This document shows positions 29,730 to 38,141 of a DNA stretch of 64,000 bases, in pieces (position 1 is the stretch's first letter; every line of letters begins with the position of its first letter). The translations under genes were made by a program, and so were the position numbers. The notes under the pieces are model-generated. The model was not told the DNA's origin. It searched no databases and saw only the letters and a list, made by a program, of their open reading frames with translations. This DNA comes from Methylophilaceae bacterium (GTDB lineage: Bacteria; Pseudomonadota; Gammaproteobacteria; Burkholderiales; Methylophilaceae): the NCBI GenBank assembly GCA_018398995.1, contig CP073759.1, positions 124,001 to 188,000 of the forward strand, in the 5' to 3' direction.

Positions 29730-30503
29730 TTAACGTAGCTTTTTACTGAATTTAAACGATAAACAATACGGCAGTGAACGCAATAGCTTCATGATTAAAG
29801 TAAATTTCTTGGGGAAGTGAATTTCAAAATTTGATGCAGTGATGCCCGCCACAATGTGTTGCGCGGCTTCATCTACTTCTATCATCATGGGCATGTCAAA
29901 GCTATTCATGTCTGTCATTTCGGTACGCACAAAGCCCGGACTAATCAATTTTATATCAATATTTTTTGGCTGATATTCAACATATAAAGTTTCTGCCAAG
30001 TTGATAATCGCAGCTTTTGTAGATGAATAGGGTTGGGCATTTGGCAAGCCAAAGTAGCCTGCCACAGAACCGCACAAATTAATTTGACCATGACCTTGCG
30101 TTTCAAAAAACGGCGTCACAACAGCCAGCATGTTATAAACACCACCCAAATTCACCTGTAGACTTTTATGGATAAAGCGAATATCCGCCCTACCCGCAGC
30201 TGAAGGATCATAGACGGCTGCTAAAAAGATGACTCTATCTAAACGCTTAACGGATTGAAACGCCGCAACTGTTTGTTGATGGTCACTTACATCAAAAGCC
30301 AACACTTGATGATTTGCGCCTTTTAGTTGCGCCCTCACCTCTTTTAATTGCGACTCTCGACGTGCTGACAAAATAAGGTTGGCACCACGCTCACTTAATG
30401 CTTTGGCAGTGGCCGCCCCAATGCCACTACTGGCGCCAATAATCCATATATATTGACCTTGAACTGATTGCATTAACTCTTTATTGTCAGCATAAAAAAG
30501 CAT
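29730..30503 (-). CDS. SDR-family NAD(P)-dependent oxidoreductase
   Basis: A classical short-chain dehydrogenase: cofactor loop IIGASSGIGAATAKAL near residue 20, NLCGSVAGYFGLPNAQPYSSTKAAI holding the catalytic Ser-Tyr-Lys (YxxxK as YSSTK), and SPGFVRTEMT after it. Length is 257. The ATG lies two bases after the stop of the DUF3833 lipoprotein gene, making it the last gene of the seven-gene lipid-modification cluster. In related clusters an SDR is a regular member, presumably reducing or oxidising an acyl or keto intermediate; the substrate is unknown. Confidence 0.9.
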   Translation of the reverse strand: MLFYADNKELMQSVQGQYIWIIGASSGIGAATAKALSERGANLILSARRESQLKEVRAQLKGANHQVLAFDVSDHQQTVAAFQSVKRLDRVIFLAAVYDPSAAGRADIRFIHKSLQVNLGGVYNMLAVVTPFFETQGHGQINLCGSVAGYFGLPNAQPYSSTKAAIINLAETLYVEYQPKNIDIKLISPGFVRTEMTDMNSFDMPMMIEVDEAAQHIVAGITASNFEIHFPKKFTLIMKLLRSLPYCLSFKFSKKLR

Positions 30504-30505
30504 GT

Positions 30506-31057
30506 TTAATCTTGTTTTTGCATAAACAATGTTAACTCAGCGACCGTGATGCCAAATTTTTTCAAATAAGACCGATTAATCAATACGCCATCATTCATTA
30601 AAAACATCCAATCATCAAAAGTGATGCGATAAGTGGTGTCACCAACTGGCAAATCCATTTTATATGCCCAGCGCATCGCGCTTCCACTGGAATGACCGCT
30701 CGCTTTATCTAAAATGTCACCAGCCGTTCCCTCATAGCGATTTTCCGCTGTTTTGGTAATTGTCCAAACGCGCTTCTGTGTTTCGCCATCATAATATTGA
30801 AAATGCTCTTCAAGCGTGCCAACATCACCATTCCATGTGCCATTCATGGTGACATCAAAACGTCGCGTGACTTCTCCACTTCTGTTTTGAATGAGACCCC
30901 AAGCCTTAATGGGGCCAGTAAAGTACGTTTGTAAATCCAATACAGGCTTGGTATCTTTATAAGCTTGCATGGATGGCGTTGCGCAGCCGTTAAGAAACGT
31001 CATAAGCCCCATGATTATTACTCCTTTTAATAGTTTTGTTTTGTACAGTTTCATCAT
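30506..31057 (-). CDS. DUF3833-family lipoprotein
   Basis: The protein has a lipoprotein signal: basic start KLYKTKLLKG, hydrophobic core VIIMGLMTFL, lipobox LNGC, then a 160-residue DUF3833 domain (LQTYFTGPIKAWGLIQNRSGEVTRRF; NGTWNGDVGTLEEHFQYYDGE; YRITFDDWMFLMNDGVLINRS). Starts at 31063, 31057 and 31054 are all possible; AGGA spacing favours 31057. A strong AAGGAG precedes an internal ATG at 31012, but starting there would delete the signal peptide. The gene overlaps the end of the MFS gene by 68 bases. DUF3833 proteins travel with CFA-like methyltransferases and SDRs; the lipocalin-like domain may carry a lipid, which is inference. Confidence 0.87.
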   Translation of the reverse strand: MMKLYKTKLLKGVIIMGLMTFLNGCATPSMQAYKDTKPVLDLQTYFTGPIKAWGLIQNRSGEVTRRFDVTMNGTWNGDVGTLEEHFQYYDGETQKRVWTITKTAENRYEGTAGDILDKASGHSSGSAMRWAYKMDLPVGDTTYRITFDDWMFLMNDGVLINRSYLKKFGITVAELTLFMQKQD

Positions 31058-32324
31058 TTTCATCCTGTGTTTTAATTAATATCCATAAACAAACCGCTGC
31101 GAACAACTTAATGATGCATGGCGCTAGACCATATAACATTAATAGTGATTGCATGGCTGTTTGTGTATTGTTTGCAGCAACCATAAAGCCAACGCTATCC
31201 AGTACTAAAAAAGCGCAGCCACTGGCAATTGCCAACGCTAATTTTGGAATAAACGCCATCACGCCATAATATTGTGTGGCACGGCTTTCTGCTTTTCTGG
31301 CATTGATACGGTCTGCGATAATAGAGGCAGGTAGCGCCAAATCTGCGCCCAATGCAAAGCCAGAGAGCACACAAATAACCGCATAAGAAACAATATCGCC
31401 CGGGGCTAACAAAATAACCCAAACAAATACACTAATAGAGAGCAACATCGATACTAACCATGCACGATATTTATCAAGCCGTTTTGATAAAACAAACCAC
31501 AGTTGCATCAGCGCAGCGCCAGAAACAAAATATAAAAACAGAAATAAACCAGTGTAACTTTCTGCATTTAAATAATCGCGAACAAAAAACAGAATCAATA
31601 CCGCTGGTAGCGATGCCGCAATCTGTGTCAGCAAATAAGTCAAAAAGAACAAGCGCTGTTTATCATACAAAATCTGAAAAAACGGATTCTTGATGACATT
31701 GCTTATTTGGTTGATATGACGTAAATCAACATTGTTTAAAAATTGTAGAAATAATGTCCATGCAATGACCATCGCAATAAAATAAACAACAAATAACCAT
31801 CTAAACGCTTCTGAGGCATCTGTTATCATCAAAAAAATGGTCGGCAAGATTGAGGCAACCAGCAGGCCAAAGAGCGTAAAAGACTCGCGCCAGCCAGCGA
31901 TGCGCGTACGTTGGTGTTTGTCCGCCGACCAAAATCCACCAATCATATTGAGATTAATCACAACAATACTAAAACCAGTCGTGGCTAACAACATGCTAGC
32001 AGCAAACCAAACGGGGGTGGCAACCGTCCATTGTGGTCCAAAAAACAAGGCACATAAACCAATACTAAGTGCAACAACACCACCCAATAAAATATGGCTT
32101 CTATGTGCTGGATAACGGTCAGATATAAAACCAATAATCGGATCTTGGATTGCATCAAACAATCGCACAACCAGTAAAATGATACCAATTAACCCTAATC
32201 CTAAGCCCAAGTGGCGGCTGTAAAAATCTGGCGCATGCACGTATAGCGGTAAGCCTGCAAATGCAACGGGTAAAGCCAAGATTGCATATTGAAACAAGCT
32301 CCAACGGCTAGGCGCTTGCGCCAT
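30990..32324 (-). CDS. MFS transporter of the GPH/MelB-like group
   Basis: A 444-residue carrier with about twelve hydrophobic helices. The motif RLFDAIQDPIIGFISDRYP near residue 50 and RTRIAGWRESFTLFGLL near residue 140 mark the glycoside-pentoside-hexuronide (MelB-like) cation symporter group. The start overlaps the previous stop by one base (TAATG). Homologues are constant members of the CFA/FAD-oxidoreductase clusters, where they are more likely to move a lipid or lysolipid than a sugar; that is inference from context. Confidence 0.88.
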   Translation of the reverse strand: MAQAPSRWSLFQYAILALPVAFAGLPLYVHAPDFYSRHLGLGLGLIGIILLVVRLFDAIQDPIIGFISDRYPAHRSHILLGGVVALSIGLCALFFGPQWTVATPVWFAASMLLATTGFSIVVINLNMIGGFWSADKHQRTRIAGWRESFTLFGLLVASILPTIFLMITDASEAFRWLFVVYFIAMVIAWTLFLQFLNNVDLRHINQISNVIKNPFFQILYDKQRLFFLTYLLTQIAASLPAVLILFFVRDYLNAESYTGLFLFLYFVSGAALMQLWFVLSKRLDKYRAWLVSMLLSISVFVWVILLAPGDIVSYAVICVLSGFALGADLALPASIIADRINARKAESRATQYYGVMAFIPKLALAIASGCAFLVLDSVGFMVAANNTQTAMQSLLMLYGLAPCIIKLFAAVCLWILIKTQDENDETVQNKTIKRSNNHGAYDVS

Positions 32325-32836
32325 TATTTTTGCCCAATTAATTGATTACGTAAGGCTGGTTGACTGGTTTTTTCACCGAACCAGATATTAAAGAAAGCAG
32401 CACAAAATTGTTTATTATTGATTTGTCCGATATGACTATCATTTTTATAAAACGCGCACTCGGTAGGACTTTTATAAATGCCTGTAATATGGTCTCCCTT
32501 TTTCACATTAGGAAAAATATTGCGCATTTGAGAGTGCCAATCGGCTAGTGTCACCTCATCAACTTGGGCTTGATGACGAATTTCTTCTGTTGATTGATCG
32601 GCAATTTTCTCGCCTTTAATATCGCGCAAGTAAGCTAATTTTAAGGCATACGGCGGCACTACTTGACGTTTGCCGTTAGCGGTGTACAGGCTTGCATCAT
32701 AGACATCAAATAAAAATACGGTTAACCGGCCTGAGGCCACCATTTGTGCATTAGGAATTTCTGTTTCTATTAACGTGGTTGCATTGGCTTGTAGACTAAT
32801 TAACAGCAGTGTAATGAATAGGAAAATGTTACGCAT
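32324..32836 (-). CDS. Chalcone-isomerase-like periplasmic protein
   Basis: A 170-residue protein with a cleavable signal peptide (about 1-19, ending ANA), then a chalcone-isomerase-like domain: VASGRLTVFLFDVYDASLYT, PPYALKLAYLRDIKGEKIA and WHSQMRNIFPNVKKGDHITG. Bacterial members are thought to bind fatty acids rather than isomerise chalcones. The start overlaps the methyltransferase stop by eight bases and the stop overlaps the MFS start by one. A periplasmic fatty-acid-binding role would suit the cluster but is unproven. Confidence 0.86.
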   Translation of the reverse strand: MRNIFLFITLLLISLQANATTLIETEIPNAQMVASGRLTVFLFDVYDASLYTANGKRQVVPPYALKLAYLRDIKGEKIADQSTEEIRHQAQVDEVTLADWHSQMRNIFPNVKKGDHITGIYKSPTECAFYKNDSHIGQINNKQFCAAFFNIWFGEKTSQPALRNQLIGQK

Positions 32837-33992
32837 GACTCATCTCCATTTGCATCACATCGGTTTTATTGACCCTAAACCCAGCGGCGCAAGTTGCCAG
32901 ATAAAATCGCCATAATCGGATAAAACCATCATCAAAGCCCAACGCTGTAATCGCTTGTTTTTGTTGGTCAAAATTTGTAAGCCACGTTTCTAGTGTGCGC
33001 GCATAATCTTGTCCAAACATAAAGGGTGTATGCGTTTTTAAACCAGCTTTTTCTGCCTCTTGTTTAAAGCGAGAAACGCTCGGTAACATACCACCAGGAA
33101 AGATAAAACTGCGGATAAAATCACCACCACGTCGATAAGCTGGAAAATCTTTCTCGTTGATAGTAATGGTTTGCACAACTGCCTTGCCGTTTTTAGCCAA
33201 TAACGATTTTAATTTTTGGAAATAAACTGGCCAAAAGCGCTCACCCACAGCCTCGAACATTTCAATTGACAATATACGGTCATATATACCAGTTTGATGA
33301 CGATAGTCTTCTAATGCAATGTGCACATTGTTACCAAGTCGCGCTTGCGCAAAATTATGTTGTTCCTCGGATAATGTGATGCCTTTAATTTCATAATCAC
33401 CCCTGTTAATAGCACGCTCTGCCAAACCGCCCCAACCACAGCCAACTTCTAATAAGCGACCTGATTGTGTTTGCATACAATCTAACATACGGTCATATTT
33501 ATGATGTTGCGCTTGTGTGAGCGAATCTTGCTCTGTTTTAAATAATGCCGACGAGTATGTCATGCTGGGGTCTAGCCATAGCTGATAAAAGGCATTGCCT
33601 AGATCGTAATGGGCATGGATGTTTTTTTTGCTACCCTTAATTGTGTTTAATCTAAACAAATAAAATAAAGAAGAAAGCATATTGTAGAGTTTGTTGCCAG
33701 CCACCATATCTTGCATTGCCATCTGATTATTCAGCCCGAGTTGAACGAGCTTATTAATATCATCCGTATCCCATTTTCCAGAGCGATAATCATCGGCAAA
33801 ACCAATATCACCTTTGCGGATTAAATGTGTGATGACACTCCAATCATGCACAACCAAATGAGCATGATGGTCTACACATTCTTGACCAGTAAAGGTACGT
33901 ACTTTGCCATCGGGCGTTGTTAGCGTTAAAGTTCCCCACGAAAGCTGTTCGAGACGCTTGAGTAGTTGTTCAGAGGCAGTTTTATTTATCAT
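32829..33992 (-). CDS. CFA-synthase-like fatty-acyl methyltransferase
   Basis: A SAM-dependent methyltransferase of the cyclopropane fatty acid synthase family. The SAM loop is LLEVGCGWGGLAERA, preceded by KNIHAHYDLGNAFYQLWLDPSMTYSSALF (about residues 123-151). The segment after it reads IEMFEAVGERFWPVYF; E. coli Cfa has His where this has Ala (FEH/FEA), a residue of the bicarbonate site, so cyclopropanation itself may not be the product. In Rhodobacter, relatives (UfaM-type) methylate unsaturated acyl chains on the way to furan fatty acids. Length is 387. It lies 40 bases after the DUF1365 gene. Confidence 0.9.
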   Translation of the reverse strand: MINKTASEQLLKRLEQLSWGTLTLTTPDGKVRTFTGQECVDHHAHLVVHDWSVITHLIRKGDIGFADDYRSGKWDTDDINKLVQLGLNNQMAMQDMVAGNKLYNMLSSLFYLFRLNTIKGSKKNIHAHYDLGNAFYQLWLDPSMTYSSALFKTEQDSLTQAQHHKYDRMLDCMQTQSGRLLEVGCGWGGLAERAINRGDYEIKGITLSEEQHNFAQARLGNNVHIALEDYRHQTGIYDRILSIEMFEAVGERFWPVYFQKLKSLLAKNGKAVVQTITINEKDFPAYRRGGDFIRSFIFPGGMLPSVSRFKQEAEKAGLKTHTPFMFGQDYARTLETWLTNFDQQKQAITALGFDDGFIRLWRFYLATCAAGFRVNKTDVMQMEMSHA

Positions 33993-34032
33993 CGTTATCC
34001 AAAAAACATATTATTTAAATGTTAAGTAATCT

Positions 34033-34797
34033 TTACAGCGTTGTGCTAATTTTTTGTGGTTTTTGCGGAGGTTTTGGCACATATTTAACACCTTTAAACA
34101 TGAGCTGCACTGCATGCCAATGAATCATGATAATGGCTTTTAATGTGACCAATGGATAATGCCAAAATACATAGCGTAAACTAGATTTTGTTAATGCTTG
34201 CAATTTACCTGATAGGGCAGTAACCAGCTGTTTGTATCCTTCTTCATGGTGCAAATTAATCACAACATTAAAGACATCGTCGTGCACATCAAACCGAAAT
34301 TCATAATGACCTTCACGCTCAAAAAATGGTGAGACATGAAATAATTTCTCTGCAAACAACAGGCTTAACTCAGTGACTGGGCGACTATCTTGGTGCGCAC
34401 AAAGATAGGTATGGCGCTCACCAAAGGTGTTATGCACTTCGCACAGCACCGCACGAATTTGCCCACTTTTATCCTGACACAACCAAAAACTGACAGGATT
34501 AAACACATAACCCAGCACCCGTGGCATACAAACCAAGGTAATTTCACCATCCGCTTGAATGTCGTGTTGCGCTAATAAATTACGCGCCCAATTTTCTAAT
34601 GAGCTGCCGTCACAAGGCCCATGATCTTTATCAAAAAAACTCAATGCGGCAAATCGATTATAAGCAAGGGGCATCTCATTGAGCTGTGAAAGCGGTAAAG
34701 CCATGTAATAAATGCCATACTGAAAAGCATGTTTTTTTGGTACTAAGCGAGTATGCATCACTTTGCCCATCAATACTTTTGCGCTGGTTATTCCCAC
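34033..34797 (-). CDS. DUF1365-family protein
   Basis: A 254-residue protein with the DUF1365 pattern: GKVMHTRLVPKKHAFQYGIYYMALPL at about 11-36, the central RVLGYVFNPVSFWLCQD, VLCEVHNTFGERHTYL, and EKLFHVSPFFEREGHYEFRF. It is almost always next to an FAD amine-oxidase-like protein and a CFA-like methyltransferase. No catalytic mechanism is established. The start overlaps the FAD oxidoreductase stop by ten bases. Probably acts with that enzyme on phospholipid acyl chains (context only). Confidence 0.9.
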   Translation of the reverse strand: MGITSAKVLMGKVMHTRLVPKKHAFQYGIYYMALPLSQLNEMPLAYNRFAALSFFDKDHGPCDGSSLENWARNLLAQHDIQADGEITLVCMPRVLGYVFNPVSFWLCQDKSGQIRAVLCEVHNTFGERHTYLCAHQDSRPVTELSLLFAEKLFHVSPFFEREGHYEFRFDVHDDVFNVVINLHHEEGYKQLVTALSGKLQALTKSSLRYVFWHYPLVTLKAIIMIHWHAVQLMFKGVKYVPKPPQKPQKISTTL

Positions 34798-36035
34798 GGA
34801 ATCGACCCTCCTAAGCTTTTAACCACGTTAACAGCACTTAATAATCCATCTTCATGAAAACCATAGCGTTGGTAGGCTCCACAAAACCACAGCTGGCGCT
34901 TGCCTTGAATATCGGCAATCTTGTCTTGGGCAACAATGGCATTGTAATCAAAAATGGGATGCGAAAAAGAATGCTCATCCATAATCAACGCCTCTTTTGG
35001 GCGACGGGCAGGATTGAGGGTAATAATGACGGGTATTGTTGTATCTAAACTTTGCAGATTGTTCATCCAATAACTAAGTGAAACGCCTGTGGTGTTATTT
35101 TGTGGCTCTGATAGATAAACCCAGCTAGCCCAACATTGTTTATGCTGCGGCATAAAACTAGCATCAGAATGCACAATAATGGCATTGTGTTGATACTGAA
35201 AGCACGACAGAACCGCTGTTTCGTCTGGCGTTGGCGCATTGATCATTTGCAACGCTTCATCTGCATGACAAGCAAAAATAACATGGTCGAATAAGCGCGC
35301 TGCGCCGTGTGAATCAATGACTTCAATTTGTTTGCCTTTTTGCGTTACTTTGGTTGCACCATTATTTAACAAAATATGCTCTTGAAACGACGCAACTAAC
35401 CGCTGTTTATATTCACGACTGCCACCCGTAACGGTATACCATTGCGGCCTATCATTAATGCTAAGTAAGCCGTGATTTTTAAAAAACCGCAAAAAAGTCT
35501 GTGCCGGAAACTTCATAATGGTATCGACCGGACAACTCCAAATGGCCGCGCCCATGGCTAAAATATAATACTGTTTAAACCACGCGCCCATCTTTAATCT
35601 GTCCAAGCAGTCACCAAGGCTAATAGATGGATCTTGATTGATATAGGCTAGCGCTTGTTTATTAAATTTAAAGACATCGAGCAGCATGCGCCAATATTGC
35701 GGACGCAATATGTTTTTACGTTGGGCAAACAAACCCCCAGAACTATATTCTAGCCAGCCTTGATTGATACTCACGCCAAATGACATATCGCTCTTTTGAT
35801 AGGGCACGTTTATTTGATTAAATAAACCCAATAAATTTGGATAATTCCAATCATTAAATACAATAAAACCCGTATCAACGGGTAAAGTGCCATGCTCTAC
35901 AGGAATATCGATTGTTCGACTGTGCCCACCAATGTAGGCGTTTTTTTCATACACAACAATGTCATGTTCTTGATGCAGCAAATAAGCTGCCCCTAAACCT
36001 GATATGCCCGTGCCAATAATTGCAATTTTCATCAC
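34788..36035 (-). CDS. FAD-dependent amine-oxidase-like oxidoreductase
   Basis: The Rossmann loop IAIIGTGISGLGAAYLLHQ at residues 4-22, followed by DIVVYEKNAYIGGHSRTID, is the NAD(P)/FAD-binding amine oxidase pattern. The segment DTGFIVFNDWNYPNLLGLF and the C-terminal GAYQRYGFHEDGLLSAV are shared by the subgroup that accompanies DUF1365. The Rhodobacter furan-fatty-acid enzyme UfaD is described as such a protein and desaturates a methylated acyl chain. Length is 415. It is the first enzyme gene after the sensor kinase, with a 43-base gap carrying a small dyad. Confidence 0.9.
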   Translation of the reverse strand: MMKIAIIGTGISGLGAAYLLHQEHDIVVYEKNAYIGGHSRTIDIPVEHGTLPVDTGFIVFNDWNYPNLLGLFNQINVPYQKSDMSFGVSINQGWLEYSSGGLFAQRKNILRPQYWRMLLDVFKFNKQALAYINQDPSISLGDCLDRLKMGAWFKQYYILAMGAAIWSCPVDTIMKFPAQTFLRFFKNHGLLSINDRPQWYTVTGGSREYKQRLVASFQEHILLNNGATKVTQKGKQIEVIDSHGAARLFDHVIFACHADEALQMINAPTPDETAVLSCFQYQHNAIIVHSDASFMPQHKQCWASWVYLSEPQNNTTGVSLSYWMNNLQSLDTTIPVIITLNPARRPKEALIMDEHSFSHPIFDYNAIVAQDKIADIQGKRQLWFCGAYQRYGFHEDGLLSAVNVVKSLGGSIPWE

Positions 36036-36077
36036 GCTACTATGCCTATACTCAAGTTACCAAGGCATGGAAAGAAC

Positions 36078-36093
36078 ATTACAATTTTGTAAT
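36078..36093. promoter_or_regulatory. 16-base dyad at the end of the sensor kinase gene
   Basis: ATTACAA and TTGTAAT, separated by TT, form a perfect dyad that spans the kinase stop codon and lies 43 bases upstream of the FAD oxidoreductase start. It could be an operator or part of a promoter for the lipid cluster. AT-rich dyads also arise by chance, so confidence is low. Confidence 0.3.
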
Positions 36094-37389
36094 AAATCGC
36101 AAACCTTTGTCGGTATTTTTTAATAACAGTTGTCCATTGTGTAAATCAAAAACAGCCTTCACCAAACTTAAACCCAAACCAGTACCTGCTGATGAGCGAC
36201 TGATATCGCCGCGGTAAAAACGTTGAAATACTTTGTCTACATCACTATTAGCAATACCACCGCCCGTATCTTCAACTGATACCACAGCAAATTCTCCTTC
36301 CGTTTGCATGGTAATGGTAATCATGCCGTGCTCAGGGGTATATTTAATCGCATTATCTATAATGTTGGCATAGGCTTGAAATAACAAATCTTTGTCACCC
36401 ACAAGCGAGATATCGGCCAATTGCTGATGAAAAGTAATGTGCTTCATTTCAGCCAATGGCTCATAAAAAGCTATCACATCTTCTATTAATAATCGCAATG
36501 CTAATGGTGTAAAGTGCTCTCGTTTTTTTTCTGTTTCGATACGTGAAATACGTAATAAGGCATTAAAGGTAGTCAATAGTTTGTCTGCTTCATCTAACAA
36601 CATTTCATTTTTGCTATCGTCGCCCGCCTGACTGCTAGCCTCGATATGATTTCGCAAACGCGTGAGAGGCGTGCGTAAATCATGCGCTATATTGTCTGAC
36701 ATTTGTCTGAGGCCTATCATCAGCGACTCAATTCTATCCAACATTAAGTTGAGTGTGGTCGACATTTTGCCTAAATCATCCCAATGCGAACTCACTTCTA
36801 AGCGTTGAGATAAATCACCAGTAGTCATGATATGTTGTGCAGTGGTGGCAATTCTATTAGTGCCTCTTGCTACAAATACACTAATCATATAGCTGGCTAG
36901 TACCACCAATATAATTAACGCAATACTAATCATGCTCAGCCATTGCATAAAAAGAAACGCGCGCTTGGTTGCGGTAATATCAATAGCAACCAGCAGTTTC
37001 TGATTGTTGTCATAGGTATGAATTTTGCCAGCATATATTTGATGTGAATCGGGATGCTCAAAAACAATCATGCCTTCTTTTAAACGCTCAATATTGCCCG
37101 ACAATAAAGCTGGCGGTTTACCGTTGGCACTAAAAGGTATCAATAATCGGTCTTCTATTTTTTTTTCAAGCATGAGACTGTCGACGGGGGGCTCAGCGGC
37201 AAGGTATCTTATTTCAGTGTCGATTACCGCTTCTGTGCCATGAATGAAATGACCGCGCGCAAAAAAATAGCCAAAGTAACCTAAAATAAACAGAGACAAT
37301 CCGCACAATACGGTAAAAAGCAATGCCATTTTAAAGCTAGAACTATTGGCATAACTATGGCCCTTGGCTACTTTTAGGTTATTCGTCAT
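36079..37389 (-). CDS. EnvZ/QseC-type sensor histidine kinase
   Basis: A 436-residue membrane kinase: helices at about 21-43 and 146-172, a periplasmic loop of about 100 residues between them, a HAMP region (about 173-225), the phosphoacceptor H236 in DNIAHDLRTPLTRLRNH, and an ATPase domain with YANIIDNAIKYTPEHG, VEDTGGGI and GTGLGLSLVKAVFDLHNG. It overlaps the response regulator gene by 11 bases and is followed, 43 bases later, by the lipid-modification genes in the same direction. The periplasmic sensor is not recognisable; linking its signal to lipids or oxidants is inference from place. Confidence 0.94.
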   Translation of the reverse strand: MTNNLKVAKGHSYANSSSFKMALLFTVLCGLSLFILGYFGYFFARGHFIHGTEAVIDTEIRYLAAEPPVDSLMLEKKIEDRLLIPFSANGKPPALLSGNIERLKEGMIVFEHPDSHQIYAGKIHTYDNNQKLLVAIDITATKRAFLFMQWLSMISIALIILVVLASYMISVFVARGTNRIATTAQHIMTTGDLSQRLEVSSHWDDLGKMSTTLNLMLDRIESLMIGLRQMSDNIAHDLRTPLTRLRNHIEASSQAGDDSKNEMLLDEADKLLTTFNALLRISRIETEKKREHFTPLALRLLIEDVIAFYEPLAEMKHITFHQQLADISLVGDKDLLFQAYANIIDNAIKYTPEHGMITITMQTEGEFAVVSVEDTGGGIANSDVDKVFQRFYRGDISRSSAGTGLGLSLVKAVFDLHNGQLLLKNTDKGLRFITKL

Positions 37390-38059
37390 TGGTTTCTATA
37401 ATATAACCAGCACCGCGCACTGTTTGGATAATCGACACATCAAAGCCTTTATCAATTTTGCTACGCAAACGACTAATGTGCACATCAATCACATTGGTTT
37501 GTGGATCAAAATGATAGTCCCATACGTTCTCCAACAACATCGTGCGTGTCACAACTTGATTTTTGTGTTTTAGCAAATATTCAAGCAAAGTAAACTCTCT
37601 TGATTGCAACTCAATGCATAACCTATTTCGCGTCACTTTGCGCGTCATTAAATCGACTTCTAAATCACCTGCGCGCAATATGGCTGGCTGCGCTTGTTGA
37701 TGTTGTCGACGTCCTAAAATTTCGATGCGCGCTAATAACTCACTAAATGCAAATGGTTTAATAAGGTAATCATCACCGCCTGATCGCAAGCCATTGACTC
37801 GATCTTCCACATCACCAAGCGCGCTTAAAATTAAAATAGGTACTGGATTATCCAATGCGCGTAGCGCTTTAATCACAGATAAACCATCTAAGCCGGGCAA
37901 CATACGATCCACAATCAGTGCGTCATAATCTGCTGTTGTAGCGAGCAATAACCCCTCTTTTCCATTGGACGCTACTTCCGCAAAATGGCGTGCTTCTTTT
38001 AGCCCTTTTGCAATAAAAGCGGCCACATCGTCATCGTCTTCAATAATTAATATGCGCAT
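37379..38059 (-). CDS. OmpR/PhoB-type response regulator
   Basis: The receiver domain has E7-D8-D9, phosphoacceptor D51 in LIVDRMLPGLDG, and K in LIKPFAFSELLARI. The C-terminal winged helix has LQSREFTLLEYLLKHKNQVVTRTMLLENVW and NVIDVHISRLRSKID. Length is 226. It is the first gene of a nine-gene minus-strand run with the sensor kinase and the lipid cluster, and is divergent from prfC with an 82-base gap. Autoregulation of the whole run is likely but not shown. Confidence 0.95.
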   Translation of the reverse strand: MRILIIEDDDDVAAFIAKGLKEARHFAEVASNGKEGLLLATTADYDALIVDRMLPGLDGLSVIKALRALDNPVPILILSALGDVEDRVNGLRSGGDDYLIKPFAFSELLARIEILGRRQHQQAQPAILRAGDLEVDLMTRKVTRNRLCIELQSREFTLLEYLLKHKNQVVTRTMLLENVWDYHFDPQTNVIDVHISRLRSKIDKGFDVSIIQTVRGAGYIIETNDE

Positions 38060-38141
38060 AATGATAGATATAGCACGTCCAATATTATTAATCTAGTAAT
38101 CGGTTACAATAACGCCTTTGTCAATTAGCAACACATCTAAC

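Follow-up and report, generated by a model that had tools for sequence, protein, structure and literature searches.

A furan-fatty-acid-type operon with a probable two-component switch of its own in a Methylophilaceae bacterium

The nine-gene locus and its predicted product

The window analysed here is a 64,000-nucleotide stretch from a Methylophilaceae bacterium (genome G000, G000:C1:124001-188000; a single contig of 2,025,576 bases (2.03 Mb), 98.6% complete), and its subject is a run of nine minus-strand genes extending from 38059 to 29730 (Table 1). An OmpR-type response regulator and a sensor histidine kinase come first and are followed by ufaD, ufaO, ufaM, and four further genes, with neighbouring open reading frames (ORFs) either overlapping or sitting 2-43 bases apart. 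The ORF positions and the Pfam matches, each above its cut-off, confirm what the original prediction had said of the nine genes, their families, strand, and place, and also that regulator and kinase precede the enzymes in the same direction at a distance of 43 bases. That gap separates the kinase stop from a GTG that opens the ufaD ORF; the likely ATG start lies three bases further on. We regard it as quite probable that the locus is a mobile furan-fatty-acid module with its own two-component switch, in which phosphotransfer, DNA binding, activation, and the lipid product are predicted. What appears to be new is a predicted furan-lipid operon probably governed by a two-component sensor of its own, through a DNA switch with an E. 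coli-like layout; control known in other bacteria comes from a light-stress sigma factor.

Table 1. Genes and candidate control elements of the run, in window coordinates
Feature	Position	Strand	Family or remark
Intergenic element GCGTTATTGTAACCGATTA	38097..38115	-	prfC/regulator gap; near-identical in the four congeneric loci aligned, window included
OmpR-type response regulator (CusR/HprR-like)	37379..38059	-	Response_reg, Trans_reg_C
Membrane sensor histidine kinase	36079..37389	-	HAMP, HisKA, HATPase
Candidate regulator box TATTACAAAATTGTAATG	36077..36094	-	overlaps the kinase's final codons and stop
-10-like hexamer CATAGT	36039..36044	-	33 bases past the 16-base box core (36078-36093)
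ufaD-type flavin adenine dinucleotide (FAD) oxidoreductase	34788..36035	-	NAD_binding_8/Amino_oxidase; likely ATG 36032-36030
ufaO-type DUF1365 protein	34033..34797	-	DUF1365
ufaM-type S-adenosylmethionine-dependent fatty acyl methylase (CMAS/cyclopropane-fatty-acid (CFA)-like)	32829..33992	-	CMAS
Chalcone-isomerase-like protein	32324..32836	-	Chalcone_3
Major facilitator superfamily (MFS) transporter, GPH-type	30990..32324	-	MFS_2
DUF3833 protein	30506..31063	-	DUF3833
Short-chain dehydrogenase (SDR)	29730..30503	-	adh_short

The genes of UfaM, UfaD, and UfaO type are adjacent, and their CMAS, FAD, and DUF1365 proteins all exceed the Pfam cut-offs. In Rhodobacter, the accessible part of one study reports that UfaM, UfaD, and UfaO are sufficient for furan fatty acid synthesis, states a DUF1365 domain for UfaO and an NAD-FAD domain for UfaD, and reports RSP1087-1089 to be dispensable for the furan lipid (PMC7380195). 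Finding the three types together by Pfam family supports the earlier assignment of the cluster to the furan-fatty-acid type, and it is predicted to build these lipids; the ufa names are given by domain type. As far as the sources available describe it, the R. sphaeroides set RSP1091-1087 plus ufaM (RSP2144), part of the sigma-E/ChrR core regulon, shares the UfaD and UfaO domain types and has companions similar in size (RSP1087, 245 residues; RSP1088, 186; RSP1089, 402). The window differs in holding ufaM and the chalcone-isomerase-like gene inside the run, and in having a two-component pair beside it and no ChrR found. DUF1365 is present in 58 of 100 genomes, the window's own included; the loci of the other 57 were fetched, and outside the genus the neighbourhoods show other ufa-type arrangements. 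A literature search, mostly without subscription papers and preprints, showed among the papers listed none joining furan fatty acids or DUF1365 to two-component systems or CusR.

Furan fatty acids have been tied to singlet-oxygen signalling via ChrR, the turnover of which needs them according to the accessible part of the report (PMC6852236). The earlier remark that no sigma/ChrR pair is seen at the locus is borne out genome-wide, with neither Cupin_7 nor TIGR02451 giving a match in G000. Of the 100 genomes, 20 gave weak TIGR02451 matches and none a match above its cut-off, which a Caulobacter positive control passes. ChrR as the typical control of such operons, as originally supposed, is therefore not the local norm. 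An rpoE-chrR pair elsewhere in the genome could still be imagined to control the operon, for G000 has two extracytoplasmic function (ECF)-like sigma factors, at 575615 and at 779593 (the second below the Pfam region 2 cut-off). Their annotated neighbours, however, are DUF1841 and zf-HC2 in one case and DUF3619 and DUF3106 in the other, and neither ChrR model gave a match; such remote control is very improbable, on a comparison in which sigma-E-type promoters were not scanned.

The candidate box and promoter before ufaD

The published E. coli HprR/CusR box of the hiuH-hprR intergenic region is CATTACAAAATTGTAATG (PMC9302797, in the part accessible). HprR and CusR are reported, again in a source seen in part, to share a recognition sequence with differing affinities (PMC8249747), and a related palindrome is reported for CusR, CopR, and CzcR of Pseudomonas (PMC11195947, accessible portion). 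Directly before ufaD, the window element TATTACAAAATTGTAATG agrees with the E. coli box at 17 of 18 bases. When up to three mismatches are allowed, this is the single matching place in the window (it is hit on both strands), where chance would give 0.30 matches; two or more arose in 5 of 100 shuffles. The exact 16-base core occurs once in G000 and once each in the congeners G003 and G005, always before ufaD, and the corresponding position in the congener G001 has two mismatches to the core. Elsewhere in the genome, places with two mismatches are as frequent as in a reversed-pattern control, and the other box-like places read in G000 have at most three of six TATAAT matches at offset 33. A palindrome of the ATTACA-n4-TGTAAT type, with its spacing to a -10-like hexamer, is present in the window, where binding by the regulator is a prediction.

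Seven of the 13 loci with the pair or a relic of it have a box with at most one mismatch before ufaD or ufaM: the window, L061, L062, L063, L160, L171, and L210. Four are congeneric, and four separate lineages are represented; such a box is expected in 0.05% of shuffled stretches. None of eight near relatives has it (seven without the pair and the contig-cut L259), ufaM having not been found in three of them. In L210, an alphaproteobacterium with a kinase 44% identical, ATTACCATTTTGTAAT lies at distance 61 and outside any gene. The box-to-ATG distance is likewise 61 in the window and three congeners, remaining constant across the four while the sequence drifts.

For a putative -10 element, TATAAT was scored over every offset behind 15 box sites (those with at most three half-site mismatches); the score peaked at 33, with a mean of 3.6 of 6. 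The 12 sites left without the three congeners average 3.42 at this offset; of 5000 shuffles preserving base content only, 0.1% attained this value at whatever offset (P 0.001). Sites with at most one mismatch score 4.12 (n=8), and the five non-congeneric ones among these 4.0 (P 5e-5 at offset 33, 20,000 shuffles), against 3.0 for sites with two to three mismatches (n=7) and 1.6 for 10 places without a box. In E. coli K-12, hiuH reads box-N33-TATCCT and cusC box-N33-TAAAGT; taking these hexamers for the actual -10 elements is our own interpretation of the sequence rather than something drawn from a paper. Box and spacing were first noticed in the window and the other loci tested later, and the spacing in E. 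coli was consulted only once 33 had been seen, so the P values are not fully prior. The window shares with the E. coli HprSR/CusSR systems and their hiuH and cusC promoters the regulator subfamily, the box, and the 33-base spacing; its targets, in contrast, are membrane-lipid enzymes, most of its kinase sensor part is unaligned, and its regulator stays below the NCBIfam cut-offs.

On this basis a regulated promoter serving the enzymes themselves appears to lie between the kinase and ufaD genes. The original prediction had named a separate strong promoter, together with a lack of regulator dependence, as refuting it; a separate promoter would not by itself count against regulator dependence, since a promoter in this position would itself be the regulated one. 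In the mechanism proposed, the kinase would sense membrane or envelope stress and phosphorylate the adjoining CusR/HprR-like regulator, which would bind the palindrome ATTACAAAATTGTAAT and activate the promoter with its -10 element 33 bases downstream. Transcription would then cover ufaD-ufaO-ufaM and the four following genes, and UfaM, UfaD, and UfaO would methylate, desaturate, and oxygenate phospholipid acyl chains to give furan fatty acids. A predictable output promoter also means that the signal of the sensor could be screened for by reporter.

Box candidates at two other places are weak: ahead of the regulator the best fits have 3-5 mismatches in 12 loci, and the candidate ahead of ufaM in the window has 3. 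Box-like sites do occur at the ufaO end in L160 (10454), L171 (13424), L168 (13438), and L209 (12421), each with a -10-like hexamer 33 bases on. They suggest a second regulated promoter before ufaM, though the conserved LTK tail gives part of the match.

The regulator-kinase pair and its ties to the enzymes

Both genes of the pair are, as judged from their sequence, intact, and neither the kinase histidine H236 nor the regulator aspartate D51 varies in the two aligned congeners. By BLASTP against E. coli, the regulator is 48% identical to CusR and 41% to HprR, and no other regulator of G000 exceeds 37% identity to it. Its best NCBIfam models are those for copper/silver response regulators, NF007346 (243.7 bits, cut-off 420), and for the heavy-metal OmpR subfamily, TIGR01387 (239.8 bits, cut-off 279.2); the HprR model gives 202.2 bits (cut-off 353), so that all curated CusR/HprR cut-offs are missed. 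Alignments of the kinase cover its residues 152-436 against CusS (29%) and 117-419 against HprS (27%), and as they begin only at residues 152 and 117 of the window kinase, the periplasmic sensor domains of CusS and HprS find no match in it. Its predicted structure has a predicted local distance difference test score (pLDDT) of 66 and a predicted template modelling score (pTM) of 0.37.

The system might sense copper or silver as CusRS does, furan lipids then being part of metal tolerance. CusR is the regulator's closest relative by identity, and for both the kinase and the regulator a heavy-metal subfamily model takes first or second rank, albeit below cut-off. Alignment to CusS, however, starts only from about the second transmembrane segment (TM2), no gene of the nine belongs to a metal-efflux family, and a related kinase of the same clade (L159, 9962-11017) retains TM1 and TM2 with almost no extracytoplasmic domain; metal sensing is accordingly held to be unlikely. 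A different idea comes from the segments that the ufa-linked kinases conserve. Mean pairwise identity in the juxtamembrane SSSF[KQ]MA motif plus TM1 is 0.60 in 11 ufa-linked kinases against 0.44-0.45 in 11 unlinked relatives; TM1 alone gives 0.55 against 0.42-0.47 and TM2 0.52 against 0.40, whereas no such excess is seen in the periplasmic part (0.32 against 0.33) or the catalytic domain (0.45 against 0.46-0.48). These are plain means without a significance test, taken without L223, whose kinase ORF is overlong, and without L159, which lacks a sensor part. Because of these modest differences and the one shortened kinase, it is conceivable, if doubtful, that the kinase is a membrane-embedded lipid-state sensor of acyl-chain oxidation or furan content within the bilayer that tunes furan-lipid synthesis accordingly, closing a loop without ChrR.

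The association of pair and enzymes extends well beyond the window. The gene order is kept in two of five congeners searched and, as a relic of the pair, in a third, the other two assemblies being 76% and 48% complete; pair and ufa order recur in nine other genomes (in L207 the contig ends after ufaD, and in the L168 and L171 runs no MFS gene was detected). The order is therefore not chance. A scan of the genome contigs with the kinase alignment found 15 loci, of which two belong to congeners, nine match in the core only (24-33%), and four hold full-length relatives (40-47%). Behind each of these four lie ufa genes. Within the family, the kinase occurs in 3 of 187 genomes, the window's own included, all in this genus. 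Among 385 genomes of the class around L171, in a scan scoring at most four candidates per genome, at least 130 match the kinase at 1e-40; among the matches listed, five besides L171 reach 1e-90, and the next stands at 8e-71. All five adjoin ufa genes, with the pair lying downstream of the SDR gene in L211, while none of the 12 loci fetched from the 124 remaining genomes with weaker matches has ufa genes. In the kinase tree, the 12 ufa-linked proteins form one group (support 87/95) apart from the 12 unlinked, and every member of this clade adjoins ufaD or its operon. The unlinked alphaproteobacterial pairs (L212-L223) fall in a separate kinase group without ufa genes within the fetched loci, their regulators being 57-64% identical to that of the window in 11 of 12 (none was detected in L223). 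L159, L160, L168, and L171 are metagenome assemblies, and many of the G genomes are incomplete.

Searching from the enzyme instead gives a more mixed picture. The 12 best alphaproteobacterial UfaD matches (E <1e-140, L171 included) comprise six with the pair, five without (L257, L258, L260, L261, L262), and one cut by the contig end (L259); the notion from the kinase-first search that this ufaD type always has the pair is rejected. In the ufaD tree, a single group of 21 (100/99) takes in every ufaD that has the pair; 13 of its members have the pair or a relic, seven lack it, and one is cut by its contig, a distribution that requires six changes.

Several of these observations weigh against the pair as the switch of the enzyme genes. 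In G005, the prfC-ufaD interval (L063, 1684-2350) retains regulator codons 1-45 and the kinase's last 37 codons with one stop, the box being intact; the seven enzyme-side genes are nevertheless uninterrupted up to the contig end, which cuts the SDR gene. Together with the 5 of 12 UfaD matches without a pair, this relic means that the module can persist without its regulators. Six of the 13 loci have no box with at most one mismatch near ufaD or ufaM, and the site is therefore not universal. Furthermore, in the window, L061, and L062 the box shares its bases in part with kinase codons (ITKL-stop, with a longer tail in L061), and before ufaM in several alphaproteobacteria it overlaps the conserved LTK tail, so part of its conservation could be due to protein.

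The pair could, on such grounds, respond to envelope or metal stress in general and only happen to lie upstream, with the enzymes expressed constitutively or by read-through from the pair's promoter. Short gaps permit co-transcription, G005 keeps enzymes without a pair, and related alphaproteobacterial pairs exist without any ufa link, 7 of the 12 fetched standing behind an HtrA/DegP-like ORF. A merely upstream position, on the other hand, would leave unexplained a matching box with E. coli spacing at ufaD that recurs in other lineages, and the adjacency of 12 of 12 clade kinases to ufa genes, once downstream of the operon (L211). This alternative is judged improbable, and the box, its spacing, and the co-occurrence argue that the two-component pair is very probably the switch of the enzyme genes.

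Origin of the module and regulators in its relatives

Since ufaD and the kinase of the window both nest among alphaproteobacterial sequences in the trees, the genus most likely acquired enzymes and switch in one import from an alphaproteobacterial lineage. The original suggestion of a replaced switch stands as regards the pair being the probable switch, but the swap would not have been made here. Loss of sigma/ChrR by the operon in this lineage is likewise rejected, as relatives are without ChrR above cut-off and the nearest kin of the operon are alphaproteobacterial. On a nearby outer ufaD branch, L269 has, divergent from ufaD, genes for an ECF sigma factor and for a true ChrR (206.9 bits against a cut-off of 124.5), which suggests—from one annotated locus and weakly supported inner branches—that within the alphaproteobacteria the pair took the place of ChrR. 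There, with the pair in 6 of the 12 best ufaD matches, it looks to have been lost or replaced repeatedly; in L260 an OxyR-like LysR gene precedes ufaD, its 237.8 bits falling short of the 329 set as cut-off.

Regulator genes at the ufa loci of five relatives comprise an ECF sigma factor with an RskA-like protein (L064), B12-binding MerR (L083, L099), and TetR (L100, L093). Regulators beside one operon thus range over ChrR, OxyR-like, MerR-B12, TetR, RskA-type, and two-component systems, a variety that suits this operon well to work on regulator exchange. That enzymes of this kind also stand next to a phosphorelay suggests a use for the lipids outside the ChrR loop. In the blue-light response of V. 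cholerae, which involves ChrR and MerR, the accessible part of the report describes a CFA-like gene induced by blue light (PMC5241685); a sigma/anti-sigma pair and MerR act there, in contrast to the two-component pair of the window.

A few further observations concern individual loci. The pair-ufa module of L168 lies in a metagenome-assembled genome labelled Cytophagales, reflecting either transfer across phyla or a binning error. Among the unlinked pairs of L212-L223, those behind an HtrA/DegP-like ORF follow it within 900 bases, the ORF being 500-576 residues long with a G[NS]SGG motif, and it is possible that such pairs are the ancestor of the switch. In G001, a second, distantly related regulator-kinase pair lies across prfC (L061, 15195-17341). 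Near ufa operons there are also a DNA photolyase gene (L168, 17805-19217) and photolyase-related DPRP genes (L171, 17298-18833; L099, 3804-5333), neighbours that hint at light stress as a common setting.

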